Shown here: positions 37,649 through 46,432 of the stretch, piece after piece | Numbering within the stretch: position 1 is the stretch's first letter | Layout of the letters: each line of letters opens with the position of its first letter | Assembly (NCBI GenBank): GCA_020722005.1 | Contig: DYLP01000015.1 | Location: forward strand, 1 to 54,836 | Direction: 5' to 3' | Length of the DNA: 54,836 nucleotides | Origin: Melioribacter roseus | GTDB taxonomy: Bacteria > Bacteroidota > Ignavibacteria > Ignavibacteriales > Melioribacteraceae | Notes under the pieces: generated by a model | Database searches by the model: none | What the model saw: only the letters and a program-made list of their open reading frames with translations | What the model was told of the DNA's origin: nothing | Program-made: the position numbers and the translations under genes

Positions 37649-38929
37649 ATGAAAAGCTTCGTATTATTATTTGTTTGCATGGTGTATACAATCTCGGCAC
37701 AGGTGGAGTCATCAGAAGATATTAACATCAGTAAATTCGAACCCGTTTTTTATACTGATTTCGTTCAATATAAAACAGCCGACGATACAAACAAAATTCG
37801 CCTCGACGTTTTCTTTCAGGTACCGTATGCTAATATACAATTCGTTAAAAGAGGCAATTCATTTTATGCCGAATACAGTCTCTCTGTTATATTTTACGAA
37901 GCCAAAACCGACAAAATGATTTTCGAAAGAATCTGGAAAGAAAGAATTTCTACAACAGATTTCGACGAAACCATTTCAAGAAATAATTTCAACATGTCCT
38001 ATAAATCATTTCCTATTGATGCAGGCGATTATAAAATTAAATGCATCCTCGAAGATACCGATTCAAGAAAAACACATTCGTATACCTATAACGTATCGTT
38101 AAAAAAATTCAATCGCGATCTTTCGGCAAGCGACATCCTGCTCGTTAAAGATATTCTGAAGAATGAAAGCGGTGAAGTTATTGTGCCAAATGTTTCAAGA
38201 ATAGTAACAAATAAAGACACCGTTCTCCGCTTCTATTACGAAATCTATTCCACAGAGAAAACGGAGTTAGAAATAACATATTTGCTCGAACACCTCGACA
38301 GCGAAAATAAAATAGAAGAAAAAAGAACACTAAGTCTCAATGATGGAATAAACACGGTTTACGATTCACTAAACACATTAAAATTCATACTCGGCACTTA
38401 CAAATTATTCATGACTGCAAAAGACTTAAAACGCAATTTAAGCGCCGAAGTCCAAAAGATTGTATTATCAAAAATAACCGGGTTACCAAATTCGATAACA
38501 GACATCGACAAAGCAATTGAACAGATGATCTACATCGCTTCACCCACCGCCCTGGCATATATAAAAGAAGGAAAAACTTACGAAGAAAGGTTGATGAGAT
38601 TCCTTGAATTCTGGGACAAGAAGAAACCAAATCCCAAGATGTTAGTAAATCCTATTATGAATGAATACTACAGACGAGTCGAGTACGCCAATAAAAATTT
38701 CAAAGCATTTGGAAACGAAGGCTGGCGTACCGACATGGGAATGATTTATATTACATTTGGTCCTCCCAGTTACGTAGAGAGGCATCCGTTTGACCCGGAT
38801 TCCAAACCGTATGAAATTTGGGATTATTACGAACTGAATCGTTCGTTCGTATTTGTAGACCAAACCGGATTCGGGGACTATCGACTTCTTAATCCAGATT
38901 ACAGTCGCTGGCCTGGTTATCGTTACTGA
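37649..38929 (+). CDS. GWxTD-domain exported protein
   Basis: 426 residues. A signal peptide ends near TISAQ. About 330 residues of beta-rich, low-similarity sequence lead to the C-terminal motif GWRTDMGMIYITFGPPSYVERHPF near residues 350-375, then an aromatic tail ending WPGYRY. This is the second GWxTD protein in the window; unlike the first it has no TPR region. It is co-directional with rimO and its stop overlaps the convergent FecR gene by 7 bases. The domain is named but has no established function; surface or periplasmic location is likely. Confidence 0.82.
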   Translation: MKSFVLLFVCMVYTISAQVESSEDINISKFEPVFYTDFVQYKTADDTNKIRLDVFFQVPYANIQFVKRGNSFYAEYSLSVIFYEAKTDKMIFERIWKERISTTDFDETISRNNFNMSYKSFPIDAGDYKIKCILEDTDSRKTHSYTYNVSLKKFNRDLSASDILLVKDILKNESGEVIVPNVSRIVTNKDTVLRFYYEIYSTEKTELEITYLLEHLDSENKIEEKRTLSLNDGINTVYDSLNTLKFILGTYKLFMTAKDLKRNLSAEVQKIVLSKITGLPNSITDIDKAIEQMIYIASPTALAYIKEGKTYEERLMRFLEFWDKKKPNPKMLVNPIMNEYYRRVEYANKNFKAFGNEGWRTDMGMIYITFGPPSYVERHPFDPDSKPYEIWDYYELNRSFVFVDQTGFGDYRLLNPDYSRWPGYRY

Positions 38930-39618
38930 GAAACTTCAGCCATTTTTTCCTTCAGCAATTTGCTGATTTTTTCCAGCCGTTTTATGCTTTCAGAATCTAT
39001 ATTGTATTGTGATATATCATTGATTTCTTCAGCGGCTTCATTAATAAGATTCATCTCAACCATCAATTCAACAAAGTAGATACGGTCAGATATCCGTTCT
39101 TTTGTTGCAGGATATTTTCTGTAGGTTTCTTTCGCAAGTAAAATGGCGGATTCTTTATACCCATTTTCAACAAGTTGTTTTGCTCCATTTAATTTTTTGA
39201 TCCCAAGCAAATTGGAAGCCTCTGATTCAGTTTCAGCCCTGCGGTTTTCGATTTTTTCGCTGTAAACGGCAGTATTACGAGTTTTGTTATTGTTTTTGCC
39301 GGGACGTATATTTTTAATTTCTTCAGAAGCCAGAGCCAGCAAAAGTTCGTTGAGTGTCATCTTTTTTATGTTATTGATTCCGAGCGCTGAATTATCCTCC
39401 AGAATAAATCTCGAGCCACCACTTTTCAAATAAACGACTGAATTTTTTCCAGTGGCAATAATATCCATTCCTGACAATTTCATCCCCTGCTTTACGGGTT
39501 TCCAGTTCTCTTCTGTCGTAGTTAGAACTTCAACGTCTCCCCTAACTTTTTCGACTTCGAACGTCTGTGCCATTATCGAGATTGTAAAAACTATCATCAT
39601 TGGAATTACTTTTTTCAT
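38923..39618 (-). CDS. FecR-domain exported protein with helical tail
   Basis: 231 residues. A signal peptide ends near IMAQTF. A FecR-like beta-sandwich follows (VEKVRGDVEVL, WKPVKQGMKLSGMDIIATGKNSVVYL), then helical segments that resemble TPR (AKQLVENGYKESAILLAKETYRKYPATKERI). Isolated periplasmic FecR domains often sit on outer-membrane-associated proteins. The start codon follows a clear AAGGAGG site. It is the last gene of the four-gene run headed by the Gly/Asn/Met-rich lipoprotein. No partner sigma factor is present, so classical FecR signalling is not implied. Confidence 0.76.
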   Translation of the reverse strand: MKKVIPMMIVFTISIMAQTFEVEKVRGDVEVLTTTEENWKPVKQGMKLSGMDIIATGKNSVVYLKSGGSRFILEDNSALGINNIKKMTLNELLLALASEEIKNIRPGKNNNKTRNTAVYSEKIENRRAETESEASNLLGIKKLNGAKQLVENGYKESAILLAKETYRKYPATKERISDRIYFVELMVEMNLINEAAEEINDISQYNIDSESIKRLEKISKLLKEKMAEVSQ

Positions 39619-39632
39619 AATGATATTCCTCC

Positions 39633-41639
39633 TTAATAAATATCAATAATAATCACTGTGCCTTTCGAGAGACCCAACTTTTCAATTGCCTCGCTATTAA
39701 ATTTATCTGCACCGGCTGTCCATGCATCTTTAAATCCACTCAAGACAGTTGTTTCTATTGGCAGCCATATCTGGTCGATTCCTTTTTCATTTTTTCGCAC
39801 AACTACTTTATTGTCATTATTTGTTATCTTAAATAATTCTGAAGGAGTAAGCTCCGTATTAACGAGTAAATTAACATGACTAACACCACCTAAATTTTTG
39901 TAGTCTACAAAAGCTGTTTGAATACCGATACTTTCGAGCATCGAAGAGAAGCATACACTCAAATCGTCACAATCGCCTCCTTTAAGTTCAATCGTTTCGT
40001 GGGGAAACTGCACACTCTCTGTGCTGGACCTCGGGTCAGATACATATTCCAGGCTATGCGAAAATTCATCGTAAAGAATTTTTATTTTCCTGAAAACGTC
40101 GGCTGTACTTTCTCGCGGATATTTATTGAGAATTTCTCTCGAATATTTGTTCGTAAACTCAAAATCTTTTCTAACAAAATAAATTAGATTGAATACATTG
40201 CCATCCCAGCTGTTTTTATCGTGAATTAAAACTGGTTTTTGAATATAATCGTCCGGTTCCGATTTATCGGTGTAAAGATAAAAATCTGCTTGTTCAATTT
40301 TTCTTTTGTCCACTTCTATATTCGAGATAGTAGTAAAAAAGCTGACATCGACAGTATCGCCAGGCAAGATTTTAACAACCGGAGAATATATCAGTTCGTT
40401 GTTAATGCCATTAATGAAACTTGCTGGACGTACTTCGACAATTTCATTCGAAATATTAACTACCCTTCCAGTTGCAAACGGTTTGTTTAAATAAATTTCT
40501 GAGAGAGTGGGGTAGACATCTGAATCGATCGAAACATCGATGAATTTAACAAATTGCTTGCTTTTGAAACTCAATGCCAAATTAAAGTTTACGAAAGCTC
40601 TATCCGTACTGTAAGGATTATTAAACAAGCTATAAATACCGTCGTTTACAAGCGACTCTGTCGTTTTAGAAGTATTATTCAAAGCATATATAATACCGCC
40701 CGCTGAAATCGTATATCCGTCTTTTGTAAAAGAAATCGAAGGGATAACCGACGAAATATAAGGTTGCCTGAATCTATCGTGTGCCAAAAGAGTTCCAGCC
40801 GTAATTATTCCCCCCGCTAAATTGAACGAATAATTTAATCCCGCATAAAAAGCTTTGTATTTATCAAATCCATACTCGTAACCAAATTTTGTCATAAATT
40901 TATTATTGCTCTTTAATTGAAACGAGGCGTGTATTCCTTTTTCAGTTTTTAATGAATAAAGACGGCTAGCTTCGCTTGAATTGTCCTCCTTACTTATAAA
41001 TAAATTAATTGTAGAAAGTGAGATTGATAATATGTCGTTCAAGATAAAATCAAATCCTAAATCCCCTCGCCAGAAGTTATCGCTCAATTCTTCTTCTTTA
41101 ATTGAAATATAATTTACGCTGTCGGTATAAAATAAAATTGGTGATTCCTCCCTGAAAGTTTGCTCGAAATATCTGAGAGATAAACCAAGATTGACACCCG
41201 AAGAAAATTTATAGGAATAACTTGTTCCGAATTTTTCAGAGTAATTTATTTCGGTTTTCAAATTGGCAACTGTGTCCGGCAGTTGAATCGTTGTGCTTCT
41301 TTTTATAATAAAGTTTTGGGCAATACCTGGACTGTAGCGAAAATAGAAATTATGATTACCGAATGCTTTTGAAATCGAGAGCGAATATAGATTTGAATTG
41401 AAACGGTTTTCGTTCTGGAAAGAAAAAGATGCCATCAGCTCGAAATCTTTTGTATTAGAAAAATTTGATATGTTGCCTTCCAGTCCGTTCATGCGAAACC
41501 TACTGGCGCTATTTAAATAACCATAATTATCGATGCTTTGCTGAGCGTAAATATTTTTCTGTCCAATGAACAGAAAAAATAATTCAAGGCAGATCGATCC
41601 TAATATTATGAATACTTTCCGAAACGATATAGGAATCAT
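39633..41639 (-). CDS. Outer-membrane beta-barrel protein with C-terminal transglutaminase-like domain
   Basis: 668 residues from the ATG at 41639, after which a signal peptide (about 5-33) is predicted. The middle 320 residues alternate strand-like stretches typical of a barrel (FELMASFSFQNENRF, YFRYSPGIAQNFII, GTSYSYKFSSGVNLG). The C-terminal 190 residues hold a transglutaminase-like triad: Cys in GGDCDD (about 555), His in GVSHVNLLV (about 587) and Glu in LPIETTV (about 627). The in-frame ATG at 41684 overlaps the upstream gene further and would separate the signal peptide. The gene overlaps its upstream neighbour by 56 bases. A protein cross-linking or peptidase role is possible; unproven. 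Confidence 0.72.
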   Translation of the reverse strand: MIPISFRKVFIILGSICLELFFLFIGQKNIYAQQSIDNYGYLNSASRFRMNGLEGNISNFSNTKDFELMASFSFQNENRFNSNLYSLSISKAFGNHNFYFRYSPGIAQNFIIKRSTTIQLPDTVANLKTEINYSEKFGTSYSYKFSSGVNLGLSLRYFEQTFREESPILFYTDSVNYISIKEEELSDNFWRGDLGFDFILNDILSISLSTINLFISKEDNSSEASRLYSLKTEKGIHASFQLKSNNKFMTKFGYEYGFDKYKAFYAGLNYSFNLAGGIITAGTLLAHDRFRQPYISSVIPSISFTKDGYTISAGGIIYALNNTSKTTESLVNDGIYSLFNNPYSTDRAFVNFNLALSFKSKQFVKFIDVSIDSDVYPTLSEIYLNKPFATGRVVNISNEIVEVRPASFINGINNELIYSPVVKILPGDTVDVSFFTTISNIEVDKRKIEQADFYLYTDKSEPDDYIQKPVLIHDKNSWDGNVFNLIYFVRKDFEFTNKYSREILNKYPRESTADVFRKIKILYDEFSHSLEYVSDPRSSTESVQFPHETIELKGGDCDDLSVCFSSMLESIGIQTAFVDYKNLGGVSHVNLLVNTELTPSELFKITNNDNKVVVRKNEKGIDQIWLPIETTVLSGFKDAWTAGADKFNSEAIEKLGLSKGTVIIIDIY

Positions 41640-42468
41640 CGGTAAATTTATCTGTGTTTTCAATTTTTCTTGCAAAACTAACAACTAAAGAACGGTTGTC
41701 TTTATCAATTATATTTTTAAAAACTTTAAAAGGCACTTTCATATTTCCATTGTCATTTCCCTTTACTTTCATGAGAGGATTAACTTCCCCGTTCTGATTT
41801 ATGGTTGCAAATACGATTTCTACACGTCCTCGTCCTTCGGAATTCCATTCGAGGTCAAAATACTCATCACTGGCGTTCCTGTTTCCAATTAATCTAACCC
41901 TTCCGATAATTTCAGACGGTGTGGGTATGTCGAATTCGATATTTCGACCAGGTCCGCTAACCACCCTAAAATTTACTCTACCTGCATACGGAAAGTTATT
42001 CATCCTTCCCATCATGTTCATCATTCTTTGAGAAGCAAAATATTTCACACCCAATAGTGTATCGAGATATACCGAACCAATTTTATACTTTAGTTTATAG
42101 TCAATTTTTCTTGCCTGGAAATTGTTAAAAAAGACAGAATTCATTTGCAGCGTTTTGTAACCCAGCATATGTCCATTCGCTGTTTGAACGGGGTTAGATT
42201 TATCATTAAATATAGCATAATAATAACCTTCCGTTTGAACCGTTCTAAAGTTCGTATTGCGCACCCCCACAACACTTACGACAATACTTTTATCTATATT
42301 CCTGTCGACAATTCCTGTGCTATCGTAGTCCAGATTTGCCGAGCCAGGAGGTACAGCCTCGAATTCGACCTCAGAAGTATTAGTAACTTCAATTAATTCG
42401 GTTGGGAGCGGCTCGCCGCAACTGAATAGTAAAATCGATATCAACAATGTTAATGTTATGTTCTTCAT
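41584..42468 (-). CDS. Lipoprotein of unknown function
   Basis: 294 residues. The lipobox LLFSC (Cys17) follows a short hydrophobic leader; the mature N-terminus is GEPLPTELIEV. Segments of beta-type sequence recur (VSVVGVRNTNFRTVQTEGYYYAIFN, RVNFRVVSGPGRNIEFDIP, GRGRVEIVFATINQNGEVNPL). No family is recognised. It lies between the Gly/Asn/Met-rich lipoprotein and the barrel protein, whose coding regions it adjoins or overlaps. A perfect 20-base palindrome sits just upstream of its start. Likely an envelope partner of the barrel protein. Confidence 0.68.
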   Translation of the reverse strand: MKNITLTLLISILLFSCGEPLPTELIEVTNTSEVEFEAVPPGSANLDYDSTGIVDRNIDKSIVVSVVGVRNTNFRTVQTEGYYYAIFNDKSNPVQTANGHMLGYKTLQMNSVFFNNFQARKIDYKLKYKIGSVYLDTLLGVKYFASQRMMNMMGRMNNFPYAGRVNFRVVSGPGRNIEFDIPTPSEIIGRVRLIGNRNASDEYFDLEWNSEGRGRVEIVFATINQNGEVNPLMKVKGNDNGNMKVPFKVFKNIIDKDNRSLVVSFARKIENTDKFTDDSYIVSESIHNIRIDLP

Positions 42469-42545: not shown

Positions 42546-43628
42546 TCATTGGATAAGATACGGAATTCCCCATGTCTTTTCTTCAACTGGCGTATCGGTA
42601 TCTTTAATTACTCCTTGCGGCAGCATATTGACTACTGCATGCATAAATCCAGGCATTGTGTTTGTGATAATAGTTTTTTCGTATGTACGGATGTAATAGA
42701 CACCGTCGAATTGGGTATCGATCAATTCGAAGCGCTCTTTAACTCGGTTACCTTTATTGATTATCGAAGCGCCGTGAGTTACAGCTACAAAGTCAGGCTC
42801 TTCATAAATACTTTTTACTTCGACTGTAATTGTAATAGGCTCTCTTTTTCTGATATAAGGGATCATACCGTACATACCTCTGTTACCGTATGCATTGCCA
42901 TTGTTATAATTATGTTGTCCGCCATTGTTTTGATTATTGCCATGCATACCCATTCCACTGTTTTGACCATAACCGGGATTTCCGCCCATCATTGCTTGTT
43001 CTCCAGTCATAAGTCTCCTCCCCAGATCGAAGAAGAAATCATTCGGTGAAGTAATAGTAATAGAATTGCCTTCGAGCGTGGTTAAAGTAATTTTAGTAAT
43101 TGCAATATTATCAGTGGATGTACCAGCTTCGGGCAATGACATACCGATTATTTTCCAGTCGACAAGATTATCGCCTGTGCTGTCAACGCGTTCGTACTTA
43201 ATTTTGCGCGTCATAACAGTCGTAAACGGTTTTTTTACAAGAGTGTCAGGTACATTTGTACTGTCTTGCAATGCCCCAAGTATAAGTAATTCACCTTCGA
43301 ATCTCTTCGTAAGTGTACCGAGGGCAGTATCAGCACCGTATTCAATCTGAAGATCACGTTCTACGAGATGAATTACCTGTCCTACTCTTAAAGGATAAAT
43401 TGTTTTAGCCAGACCACTTCCTAAAATATTCATGGCGTCTTCTTCATTAAAATTTGGCTCGAAGGAATTAACCGCCTCGTCTTCATAAGTAATTTTTTCA
43501 AGCGCAGCTTTAACCGAAAGCCCCGATTCGGGTTCTGTAATTAAACTATTGTCATTACATCCGACAAAAAGTAGTGCAAACAATAAGATTGCAGCTGGTA
43601 CTGCTAAGTAAGACCTTCTAACTTTCAT
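42546..43628 (-). CDS. Lipoprotein with Gly/Asn/Met-rich segment
   Basis: 360 residues from the ATG at 43628. The lipobox is LFVGC (Cys24). The first 200 residues of the mature protein are beta-rich, with a strand pair around VIHLVERDLQIEYGADTALG. Residues about 209-256 are a low-complexity insert rich in Gly, Asn and Met (runs such as NNQNNGGQHNYNNGNAYGN). A conserved-looking strand region resumes after it (TITVEVKSIYEEPDFVAV). I do not know the family. The start was chosen over 43700 because GGGAGGT lies 5 bases before the ATG. It heads the envelope run and lies next to a sigma-54 activator. Confidence 0.7.
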   Translation of the reverse strand: MKVRRSYLAVPAAILLFALLFVGCNDNSLITEPESGLSVKAALEKITYEDEAVNSFEPNFNEEDAMNILGSGLAKTIYPLRVGQVIHLVERDLQIEYGADTALGTLTKRFEGELLILGALQDSTNVPDTLVKKPFTTVMTRKIKYERVDSTGDNLVDWKIIGMSLPEAGTSTDNIAITKITLTTLEGNSITITSPNDFFFDLGRRLMTGEQAMMGGNPGYGQNSGMGMHGNNQNNGGQHNYNNGNAYGNRGMYGMIPYIRKREPITITVEVKSIYEEPDFVAVTHGASIINKGNRVKERFELIDTQFDGVYYIRTYEKTIITNTMPGFMHAVVNMLPQGVIKDTDTPVEEKTWGIPYLIQ

Positions 43629-43640: not shown

Positions 43641-43678
43641 TTTTTGTGTGATTATATCGTTGTTCCGGCTATGAAGAT

Positions 43679-43693
43679 ACATACAATGTGCCA
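43679..43693 (-). promoter_or_regulatory. Candidate sigma-54 (-24/-12) promoter
   Basis: The minus strand reads TGGCAC, 5 bases, then ATGT. The consensus is TGGCAC-N5-TTGC, so the -24 half is perfect, while the -12 half keeps the central TG and lacks the final C. Transcription would start about 40 bases before the lipoprotein ATG at 43628. The neighbouring gene encodes a sigma-54 activator, which raises the prior. The -12 mismatch keeps confidence moderate. Confidence 0.42.
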
Positions 43694-43745
43694 AATTCAT
43701 TTTCTTAAAAAATGGGGTAAATTCTCATTTTTTCTCAATTAAAAT

Positions 43746-43776
43746 TGCCTGGAAAACTGGCTAGAAATGCCTGGAA
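43746..43776. repeat. Pair of 9-base direct repeats, possible activator-binding sites
   Basis: TGCCTGGAA occurs at 43746-43754 and again at 43768-43776, 22 bases apart (about two helical turns). A half-site CTGGC lies between them at 43757-43761. They lie about 55-80 bases upstream of the candidate -24 element. That distance suits enhancer-type sites for a sigma-54 activator. The link to the adjacent CHASE2 regulator is inferred. Confidence 0.45.
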
Positions 43777-43990: not shown

Positions 43991-46432
43991 CTAAAACTCA
44001 AGACTATCCTTCTTTGCATTTTTATCCGAAAGCAGATGTCTGATAACATCGTCGAGATAATCGTGATAACGGACCGGTAAGTTTTTATATTTAGATGTGA
44101 AAGCTCTTTTGACTTCTTCGAAATCGTCGGTCTTAATTTTCTTTAAGTCGTTTTCAATATTTTCAAGATATTTTACGACTTTCGATCTTAATCTGTTCAA
44201 GACCTCTTCTTCGTCCGTGTCTGCAATCGACCTTACTGCAGTGTCTATGTTATAATCGTTCAGGACATAATTCTTAAAAAAGAGACCCCGCAAAATTTCG
44301 CCCACAACAGTTCGGCTGACATTTCCAATTTCCCTGGCAGTTTCTACTACTGACGAATGTGAAAATTTTTTAGCTCTCAGAGAATCGAGAATAAAACTTT
44401 CTAGGTCTGCTTTTTGATAATGCCTGTAATCGTCGGGCAAATCAGATAGTAGAATTACATGTCGTCCTTCGGCTTTTGCAAAAATAGCCGCTCTTTTTAC
44501 AATCGATTCGAGCTCTCTTACATTTCCCTTCCAATCATTTTTCATTAAACTGTCTAAAGCCGCTTTCGAAAATTTCAGATTGTCGGCTTCACATTCCAGG
44601 AAATATTCCGCCAGTATTGGAATGTCTTCTTTCCTATCTCTTAATGGAACAATTTCAATTCGGACTACATTAAGTCTGTAATACAAATCTTCTCTGAATT
44701 TTCCTTCGCCTATTAACCTAGTCAGATTTTTATTTGTAGCCGCAATTATACGCACGTTTATTTTTTGGGTTTGAGTCGAACCGACTTTTTGTAATTCGCC
44801 GAATTGAATGACTCTCAAAAGTTTAGCCTGGAACGAATCGCTCGTTTCCCCTATTTCGTCCAGAAATATTGTGCCTCCGTCGGCAGCTTCGAACAATCCC
44901 TTTTTATCGGATAGGGCATTTGTAAATGCTCCTTTAACGTAACCGAAAAGTTCGCTTTCGAGTAAACTCTCGGTCAAAGCTACACAGTTGACAGCAATAA
45001 ATTCCTTTTTCCTACGATTGCTTAAATTATGAATTGCTCTTGCCACCAGTTCTTTACCGCTTCCACTCTCACCGACAATTAAAACCGTAGCATCTGTTGG
45101 TGCAACTTTTTCAATTGTTTTAACTACTTTCTCCATCGCATCACTTTTATAAACCATGCTTTCGAATTGATGCCTGCCAGCAAATTTCTCAATCGGTCTG
45201 GAATCTTCTTCCAGCTCCTTTAATTGTTTTATTTCACTTTTCAATTTTTCTATTTGATTTAGGAATTCGCCTTTTGCTTGCTCGGAATTCTTTGAAATTC
45301 TTTCGAGTAAAGCTTCTTTACTTTCGAGCGTTTTTTTCAATAATTCGCTTTCACTCATTGCGTGCATTGCCTGCCGTTTGCTTTCCGCTATAATGAGATA
45401 TATATCGAAAACTAAGCATAATATTGCAGGCAGAAACGCCGCCGAATAATTGAATACAATATAGAAGTTATTGAAAAGAATAAAAGATGCAATCAATATG
45501 AAAAACAGATAGAGGACAATGCGTTTTTCCGGAGAAGTGAAGTGTAAGAAATAGATGGAAAGAAGGAGCAAAACTACTGAGAGTACCGACAATAAATTCG
45601 AATATTTGTAATTCAGTGAGCGATGCGTAATTATATTATCGAGAACAAAAGCGTGAAAACCGACTCCTGGCAGTTCTTTATCGTAGAAAGTGGAAACCGT
45701 TTTTGCAATCGTCGGGTCACTAACTCCGATTAATACAAATTTATTTTTAAACGCATCGGGGTTATTTTGAATTTCCCCGAAAAACTCTATCAAAGAATAA
45801 TTATGAAATTTTCGCCATGAATTGAAAAAATTAATTTTCAGTAGATCGCTTCCTTCAGTAAATTTACCGCCCGCTATTTCCACAGCGAACGCTTTTTCAA
45901 TCTGTCCGTTTACCGAGATAAACTCCGGCACATAATATCCTCCCGAATCGAAATAATTCAAGTGCCCTGTTTTCAGAGAAGGAAAATCGTATTTGGGTTG
46001 GGAATAAATAATCGTATCGGAAGCCGCAACAATCGAGGATAGAATCACATTATTCGATTTTTTTAACATTTCATTCAACAAATCGTTATAAATCTCCTGA
46101 AAAGCTAATCTCGAAGAAAACATAACTTCTATACCGATTTTTCTGGCACCTAGCTTATTCAGCTGGTCAATCAACAAAGCGTAGTAACTTCTTTTGAGAG
46201 GCCAACCACCCAGTTGTTCGATGTCGTCCGAATTTATATGTACAATTACAATAGAATTGTCGGGTTCTTTTGCTCCGCCAATTATACGCATTAGCTTTTC
46301 ATATCCGCTGTTTATTGAATAACAAACAGAATCCAGATTCAGCGACACAAGAAGTCCTGCCACAATCAACGACAAAAGAATAATTTTTTGATATCGTAAC
46401 AAATTCGATAATGTCGAATAGTTTTTATCCAT
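43991..46432 (-). CDS. CHASE2-domain sigma-54-dependent transcriptional activator
   Basis: 813 residues. One N-terminal membrane segment (about 14-32) is followed by an extracytoplasmic CHASE2 sensor (about 50-265; IVIVHINSDDIEQLGGWPL is typical). A cluster of three membrane segments (about 275-345), a coiled coil (about 350-415) and an AAA+ domain come next. Walker A GESGSGKE is near 450, Walker B FLDEIGE near 515. The sigma-54 contact loop reads GAFTNA, with Asn for the second Gly. After the AAA+ lid there is a helix-turn-helix-like stretch and an extra 100-residue helical tail. This is a one-component membrane sensor. Its gene ends just upstream of the lipoprotein operon promoter region. 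Confidence 0.92.
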   Translation of the reverse strand: MDKNYSTLSNLLRYQKIILLSLIVAGLLVSLNLDSVCYSINSGYEKLMRIIGGAKEPDNSIVIVHINSDDIEQLGGWPLKRSYYALLIDQLNKLGARKIGIEVMFSSRLAFQEIYNDLLNEMLKKSNNVILSSIVAASDTIIYSQPKYDFPSLKTGHLNYFDSGGYYVPEFISVNGQIEKAFAVEIAGGKFTEGSDLLKINFFNSWRKFHNYSLIEFFGEIQNNPDAFKNKFVLIGVSDPTIAKTVSTFYDKELPGVGFHAFVLDNIITHRSLNYKYSNLLSVLSVVLLLLSIYFLHFTSPEKRIVLYLFFILIASFILFNNFYIVFNYSAAFLPAILCLVFDIYLIIAESKRQAMHAMSESELLKKTLESKEALLERISKNSEQAKGEFLNQIEKLKSEIKQLKELEEDSRPIEKFAGRHQFESMVYKSDAMEKVVKTIEKVAPTDATVLIVGESGSGKELVARAIHNLSNRRKKEFIAVNCVALTESLLESELFGYVKGAFTNALSDKKGLFEAADGGTIFLDEIGETSDSFQAKLLRVIQFGELQKVGSTQTQKINVRIIAATNKNLTRLIGEGKFREDLYYRLNVVRIEIVPLRDRKEDIPILAEYFLECEADNLKFSKAALDSLMKNDWKGNVRELESIVKRAAIFAKAEGRHVILLSDLPDDYRHYQKADLESFILDSLRAKKFSHSSVVETAREIGNVSRTVVGEILRGLFFKNYVLNDYNIDTAVRSIADTDEEEVLNRLRSKVVKYLENIENDLKKIKTDDFEEVKRAFTSKYKNLPVRYHDYLDDVIRHLLSDKNAKKDSLEF

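Follow-up and report, generated by a model that had tools for sequence, protein, structure and literature searches.

Known systems and the locus

The closest described relative that we found of the system considered here is the Burkholderia BiofilmReg operon, in which a CHASE2 histidine kinase is encoded with a response regulator and a LysM-FecR protein (PMC5192318). Our subject is a five-gene unit, all on the minus strand, in a 54,836-nucleotide stretch of the Melioribacter roseus genome (contig DYLP01000015.1, positions 1 to 54,836; hereafter, the window). The unit encodes a CHASE2-sigma54 activator, two putative lipoproteins (LP2 and LP1), the product of a barrel-Ig-transglutaminase-like gene (BTG), modeled as an outer-membrane barrel joined to an immunoglobulin (Ig)-like and a transglutaminase-like domain, and a FecR-related protein. 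The conserved gene unit, together with its upstream motifs, is our main finding. The two systems share the linkage of a CHASE2 receptor gene to the gene for a FecR-domain protein (putative in the BTG unit), whereas the BTG unit has a CHASE2-sigma54 activator, a divergent FecR-TPR protein, the barrel-transglutaminase, and two lipoproteins. The Burkholderia study stated in 2016 that the target recognized by CHASE2 was unknown (PMC5192318). With its dedicated receptor, a repeat-bearing candidate promoter, and a putative catalytic partner, the BTG unit offers a tractable CHASE2 case.

FecA-FecR-FecI comprises an outer-membrane barrel, FecR, and a path across the inner membrane that ends at an alternative sigma factor, and it works with an extracytoplasmic function (ECF) sigma factor and an anti-sigma factor. 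By analogy, the BTG unit would combine a barrel and a FecR-type domain with a route to an alternative sigma factor; it differs in its FadL-type barrel and in having a sigma54 activator in place of the ECF sigma/anti-sigma pair. Pfam scans of the unit's five proteins plus a single neighbor returned no ECF sigma factor. As for a TonB-dependent transducer, the fold matches listed for the BTG barrel are of FadL type. With FadL/TodX, PorV, and BamG, BTG shares a predicted barrel fold (Z about 20), and it differs from the FadL family in the Ig-like and transglutaminase-like domains added after the last strand.

LapG, a free-standing periplasmic protease of the LapG/LapA/LapD system, resembles BTG in its cysteine transglutaminase fold, whereas the BTG enzyme domain hangs on a barrel and has Glu as the third triad residue. 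A Pfam scan of the five-gene unit found neither a LapA adhesin nor LapD. The GDC motif of BTG aligns to 4fgo and 4u65, which we take to be LapG, at nonsignificant E values (0.78 and 0.90), and no LapG Pfam family matched BTG at E ≤ 1; LapG membership was set aside on these E values. Well under its cutoff of 50 bits, the NCBIfam LapA retention module gave a weak match (E = 0.0014, 18.8 bits) to the N terminus of a neighboring protein.

In the open-licence literature, we found no paper describing the BTG system or bringing together CHASE2, FecR, and transglutaminase, and nothing joining CHASE2 with sigma-54 or with an enhancer binding protein. Open-licence papers retrieved for transglutaminase in Ignavibacteria were unrelated by title, as were those for transglutaminase and FadL among the matches listed, and in the open-licence Ignavibacteria literature we found no account of outer-membrane state being reported to the cytoplasm. 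The terms transglutaminase, CHASE2, FecR, and sigma-54 do not occur in the M. roseus genome paper. The unit may be an envelope sensing or remodeling system without prior description, in a poorly studied host group, and it would add a new means of holding an enzyme at the outer membrane.

Gene order, co-inheritance, and upstream motifs

Searching genome contigs with the single BTG protein recovered no relative, and an alignment used as the query instead recovered 78 loci. Synteny was counted over 78 distinct relatives of 600 to 700 amino acids (aa), at loci with enough flanking sequence. The gene for the FecR-like protein lies next downstream of BTG, within 300 bp, in 73/73 loci, LP1 lies directly upstream, within 100 bp, in 71/71, and LP2 is upstream in 65/66. 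The CHASE2 activator is encoded upstream on the same strand in 27/60 loci; where its gene is not adjacent, as in most of family f3, it is still encoded elsewhere in the genome. In a set of 15 more distant homologs (600 to 760 aa), a FecR-like gene follows in 14, and all 13 loci that could be counted contain CHASE2.

Co-inheritance was surveyed in 58 genomes, the M. roseus genome included, for BTG, LP1, the FecR-like protein, and the activator. Strong matches to full-length BTG (E < 1e-90), LP1 (E < 1e-60), and the FecR-like protein (E < 1e-50) occur in the identical 33 genomes, and the N-terminal 400 residues of the activator (E < 1e-40) match in those 33 plus G004, G019 (68% complete), and G055. 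Weaker matches comprise BTG and LP1 fragments in G054, a weak LP1 in G019, and weak FecR-like proteins in nine genomes. The co-occurrence of BTG and activator gives a Fisher p of 4e-13, with genome relatedness ignored. At E ≤ 0.001, BTG has matches in 37 of the 58 genomes, and because 33 of them match at E < 1e-90, the gene is real beyond chance. Named relatives are mostly metagenome-assembled genomes (MAGs) of Ignavibacteria, several of them Melioribacteraceae or Melioribacter.

The activator is identified by Pfam matches to CHASE2 (E = 1.5e-28) and Sigma54_activat (E = 5e-70). Its 33 distinct homologs all carry the GAFT/GSFT loop (GAFTNA in the window), 32 of them have a Walker A motif, and a helix-turn-helix-like stretch at the C terminus is conserved by eye; RpoN is encoded in the same genome. 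Upstream of LP2, whose likely start is the ATG at 43626 to 43628 (preceded by gggagg) and not the open reading frame (ORF) start at 43700, stands a sigma54-type −24/−12 promoter-like site with two mismatches to the strict consensus, and two CAGGCA copies lie 58 and 80 bp upstream of its −24 box. The second species of the genus, represented by one genome, retains both the site and the repeat.

Across the family, the pattern TGGCA[CT]N6TG (positions −200 to +90) occurs in 36/74 distinct LP2 regions, compared with 5/683 controls and 0/333 regions of the other four families, and in 32/41 LP2 regions whose locus contains a CHASE2 activator. Pairs of CAGGCA spaced 20 to 23 bp apart are found in 30/73 LP2 regions (26 at 21 bp and 4 at 22 bp), compared with 4/679 controls and 0/327 other-family regions. 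Both patterns were picked post hoc, and the same patterns were counted in the controls and the four other families; the counts are not independent because the regions come from related genomes. A narrower form, TGGCA[CT]N5[ATC]TG within 150 bp, marks 24/73 LP2 regions versus 5/1,205 other ORFs, and the strict TGGCACN5TTGC is present in just 2/74 LP2 regions. Within the window, TGGCACN5TTGCW allowing up to two mismatches is found at 28 places, one of which is the LP2 site; 14.9 were expected, and shuffled sequence gave at most 25. An earlier weighted sigma54 score was less specific and, at one threshold, had selected 32/72 LP2, 19/95 BTG, and 12/57 CHASE2 regions and 22% of 620 controls.

Genome-wide, the repeat pattern occurs at 44 places in 29 of the 58 genomes, and the reversed control pattern occurs at 5; the M. 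roseus genome has two such places, one of them at the BTG unit. Among 30 repeat loci inspected, ten lie inside ORFs and look chance-like, and some others lie upstream of unrelated-looking genes. At L212, L225, and L237, a CAGGCA tandem repeat precedes genes for other signal-bearing proteins, with a −24/−12-like site also at L237; these genes may be further regulon members.

Domains and triad of BTG

The first-pass annotation had described BTG as a barrel fused to a transglutaminase-like domain, a claim borne out by the structure models, the fold matches, the Pfam family PF01841, and a conserved Cys-His-Glu triad, although it had missed the Ig-like domain between the two parts. In order, the protein has a signal-like segment, a FadL-type barrel, the Ig-like domain, and the transglutaminase-like domain. 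The proposed barrel is upheld by a full-length AlphaFold2 model made with 67 aligned rows (mean predicted local distance difference test [pLDDT] score, 85.4), in which residues 32 to 366 match FadL-family barrels with VIA-align Z scores of 19.5 to 21.7 over 267 to 294 residues. The top match is TodX (3bs0; Z 21.7, 294 residues aligned, root mean square deviation [rmsd] 4.9), and FadL also matched. Further matches are chains of Bacteroidota beta-barrel assembly machinery (BAM) complexes, which we take to be BamG (9n2d of Flavobacterium johnsoniae, Z 20.0; 9hjm; 9hiv), and of the type IX secretion system (T9SS), presumably PorV (8gl6, Z 19.6; 6h3i). A search of Protein Data Bank (PDB) sequences with BTG alone returned nothing at E ≤ 1, and among the matches of a profile search was 9hiv_F, a chain from a BamADG structure, at a weak E value of 0.0082. 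At E ≤ 0.01, the barrel profile PF03349 matches 3/67 family members, the lowest E value being 3.9e-4, and the window BTG lacks a match at E ≤ 1. The predicted model supports a FadL-type fold.

The exact start of BTG is uncertain, an upstream TTG giving 683 aa as the alternative. From the predicted start, the first 56 bp of BTG (41584 to 41639) also form the end of LP1, and the constraint on a conserved RKVFI/RRVFT-like stretch at the BTG N terminus may stem from this overlap rather than from BTG itself. Q33, the last residue of the signal-peptide-like segment, is invariant in 67/67 aligned rows.

Modeled alone, the 305 C-terminal residues (364 to 668) reach a pLDDT of 92.7 and a predicted template modeling (pTM) score of 0.87. 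The first 110 of them form the Ig-like domain, whose fold matches (Z about 9.5 to 11) are Ig-like domains from proteins that include GH2 enzymes and HAP2. For the enzyme domain, PF01841 is the sole Pfam match of BTG, barely over its cutoff (residues 512 to 578, 25 bits versus 23, E = 2.4e-5), and it matches 61/67 family members at E ≤ 0.01. Fold matches comprise 3kd4 (Z 11.1, 137 residues aligned, rmsd 2.9), PNGase (1x3w, 9.7), chain H of the XPC/TFIIH entry 8ebv (9.7), Streptococcus pyogenes TglA (9crn, 9.6), and 3isr (9.5), with putative cysteine proteases among them. These are only moderate, because Z scores of 7 to 8 are common without kinship; the Pfam match and the triad add support, and membership of BTG in the transglutaminase-like superfamily is supported. 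The enzyme region also matched the NCBIfam anti-phage ProA model (E = 7.6e-4), but with 17 bits against a cutoff of 1,500, and this was taken as the shared domain.

The triad proposed in the first-pass annotation is real. That annotation put it at about residues 555/587/627, spaced by roughly 32 and 40 residues, which is of the right order, but its true positions are C557, H588, and E629, with spacings of 31 and 41. Cys and His are invariant in all 67 rows and Glu in 66, the remaining row having no readable letter there, and all three are invariant in 31/31 aligned order-level sequences, the window included. Among 114 distinct sequences (from 136 profile matches, the window included), 109 read Cys-His-Glu with a family profile built from many of those same sequences. 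The five others are L127 (no readable letter at the Glu position), the first half of L132 and L062 (fragments without the enzyme domain), L144 (a distant protein of 183 residues that is gapped at Glu and has an Asp close by), and L138 (a 100-residue contig-edge piece with Ala at the Glu position). At L132 (624 to 2590), the barrel-enzyme gene of one MAG is split into two ORFs. A chance triad was ruled out by this conservation. The usual third catalytic residue of the superfamily is Asp; Glu takes its place in all 66 readable rows and in the 109 sequences, a conservative change. In the model, C557 opens a helix, H588 opens a strand, and E629 follows just after the end of a later strand, and this is the usual transglutaminase/papain arrangement.

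The activity of the domain would most likely be to cut or transfer peptide or amide bonds on an envelope protein, perhaps one of its own partners, much as LapG acts on LapA. The cross-linking activity proposed earlier found no support, as the fold matches span putative cysteine proteases, PNGase, and TglA. A genuine transglutaminase, cross-linking envelope proteins or attaching them to peptidoglycan or lipoproteins, would agree with the TglA match and the superfamily name; since cysteine proteases and PNGase match equally or better and sequence cannot tell these reactions apart, we consider it very improbable. The match to 8ebv chain H, which we take to be XPC, suggests instead a noncatalytic binder that senses unfolded or specific peptides, as the transglutaminase-like domain of XPC/Rad4 is inactive and serves in binding. 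Such a role is improbable, given that the triad is kept in those 109 sequences across architectures, and we favor a catalytic domain.

In outer-membrane barrels, the N and C termini both lie on the periplasmic side. From this general topology, and because the enzyme domain lies downstream of the last barrel strand, the domain probably faces the periplasm. Of the two earlier suggestions for its location, surface or periplasm, the second is therefore retained, whereas a surface position is unlikely. A surface-exposed cross-linker is not supported, on the same ground.

Table 1. Features of the BTG unit and its upstream region, in window coordinates
Feature	Position	Strand	Basis or remark
Barrel-Ig-transglutaminase-like gene (BTG)	39633..41639	minus	668 aa from ATG at 41639
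BTG signal-peptide-like segment, residues 1-33, ending YAQ	41541..41639	minus	hydrophobic by eye
FadL-type outer-membrane barrel (predicted), BTG residues 34-361	40557..41540	minus	model and fold matches
Ig-like beta-sandwich (predicted), BTG residues 364-474	40218..40550	minus	models and fold matches
Transglutaminase-like domain, BTG residues 479-668	39636..40205	minus	PF01841, model, fold matches
Triad Cys557 codon	39969..39971	minus	codon checked, conservation
Triad His588 codon	39876..39878	minus	codon checked, conservation
Triad Glu629 codon, within WLPIETT	39753..39755	minus	codon checked, conservation
FecR-related N-terminal domain (putative) and TPR-like C-terminal region, signal-like N terminus	38923..39618	minus	profile A3, synteny
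LP1, putative lipoprotein	41584..42468	minus	lipobox-like Cys17 invariant in 21/21
LP2, putative lipoprotein	42546..43628	minus	lipobox-like Cys invariant in 21/21
Membrane-bound activator: CHASE2, sigma54-interaction AAA+, helix-turn-helix-like C terminus	43991..46432	minus	Pfam; helix-turn-helix by eye
Sigma54-type −24/−12 promoter-like site TGGCACATTGTATGTA	43678..43693	minus	starts 65 bp upstream of LP2 ATG
Candidate activator-binding tandem repeat TTCCAGGCATTT...TTCCAGGCAATTT	43740..43776	minus	CAGGCA copies 22 bp apart

Partners, distribution, and proposed role

The protein encoded downstream of BTG appears to be FecR-related by an indirect route: the profile of its family (A3) finds proteins in G044, G051, G014, and G043 at E values of 2e-6 to 6e-4, and the three that were scanned are all PF04773 FecR proteins, with a CHASE2-cyclase gene close by in the sole locus whose neighbor was scanned. 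A second CHASE2/FecR set lies in the M. roseus genome on contig C75 (L206, 2973 to 9356). It encodes a 350-aa signal-bearing protein, a PF04773 FecR protein, a CHASE2-cyclase, and a protein of 815 aa that Pfam does not match and that by eye resembles a barrel. This set parallels the BTG unit with a different output.

A phylum survey found matches in 83/296 genomes, many of which cover just a portion of either the barrel or the enzyme region. Proteins of 825 to 858 aa and of 1,154 to 1,686 aa also contain the Ig-transglutaminase module. Fourteen long relatives (825 to 1,674 aa) all have the Cys-His-Glu triad and leave the barrel portion of the profile unmatched. Scans of some of them showed TPRs in L064, L065, and L139 and an NHL-type propeller in L064 and L065, and L063 has neither. 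A Pfam-confirmed CHASE2-cyclase gene is present in 7 of the 14 long-protein loci (L063, L065, L066, L178, L179, L182, and L183). At five loci from Treponema MAGs (L139 to L143), the module, with its triad, is part of 1,045- to 1,080-aa proteins, with TPRs in the one scanned.

We consider it reasonably probable that the BTG unit is a self-regulated trans-envelope module under a CHASE2 receptor, with BTG as a periplasmic amidase or peptidase alongside a FecR-like partner. The FadL-type barrel would anchor the periplasmic Ig-like and transglutaminase-like domains at the outer membrane, and BTG, the two lipoproteins, and the FecR-related periplasmic protein would act as a single envelope module. 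The CHASE2-sigma54 activator would sense the state of the periplasm, with the barrel and FecR-like pair possibly signaling to CHASE2; it may then bind the tandem CAGGCA repeats and fire the −24/−12 promoter before LP2. A more specific version is offered tentatively: on a challenge to the outer membrane, the cysteine enzyme built into the barrel might trim or modify the FecR-like or a lipoprotein partner, and CHASE2 might read that change and switch on its own operon through sigma54. In related modules, a cyclase would take the place of this output.

Several observations weigh against this interpretation. On the regulatory side, TGGCA[CT]N6TG is present in just 4/33 LP2 regions without CHASE2 in the locus (encoded elsewhere, or short flank), the strict CAGGCA pair is limited to the 30 of 73 LP2 regions counted above, only about 13 of the 44 repeat-pattern places fall at a BTG unit by coordinates, and the weighted sigma54 score is also high upstream of the FecR-like gene (35/85) and LP1 (23/76). 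On the protein side, a PF04773 scan of the window FecR-like protein gave no match, and hhalign against canonical FecR returned a probability of 27% (E = 6.6e-4). The placement of the BTG domains relative to one another is uncertain because the full-length model has a pTM of 0.56, and at the five Treponema loci no CHASE2 or FecR match was found with the window-family profiles.

The same genes could instead form a structural or remodeling machine with no sensor, in which the barrel and lipoproteins make an assembly or export site, the enzyme processes passing cargo, and the CHASE2-sigma54 protein only times production. The fold matches of the barrel include BAM and T9SS chains, LP1 and LP2 adjoin BTG at nearly every locus (71/71 and 65/66), and PorV works with the sortase PorU. 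A further parallel is BamG, which is reported to anchor the surface lipoprotein BamH (PMC12611786). However, the module also occurs in long proteins without a barrel-profile match beside CHASE2-cyclase genes, and in the more distant 600- to 760-aa homologs LP1 is found in 6/14 loci and LP2 in 5/14. A purely structural role appears unlikely, and the long proteins beside CHASE2-cyclase genes fit a signaling role better.

Convergent with the unit, on the plus strand (37649 to 38929), the window encodes a GWxTD-domain protein (TIGR04514, E = 2e-31), which is a direct neighbor only in the genome of the same genus.

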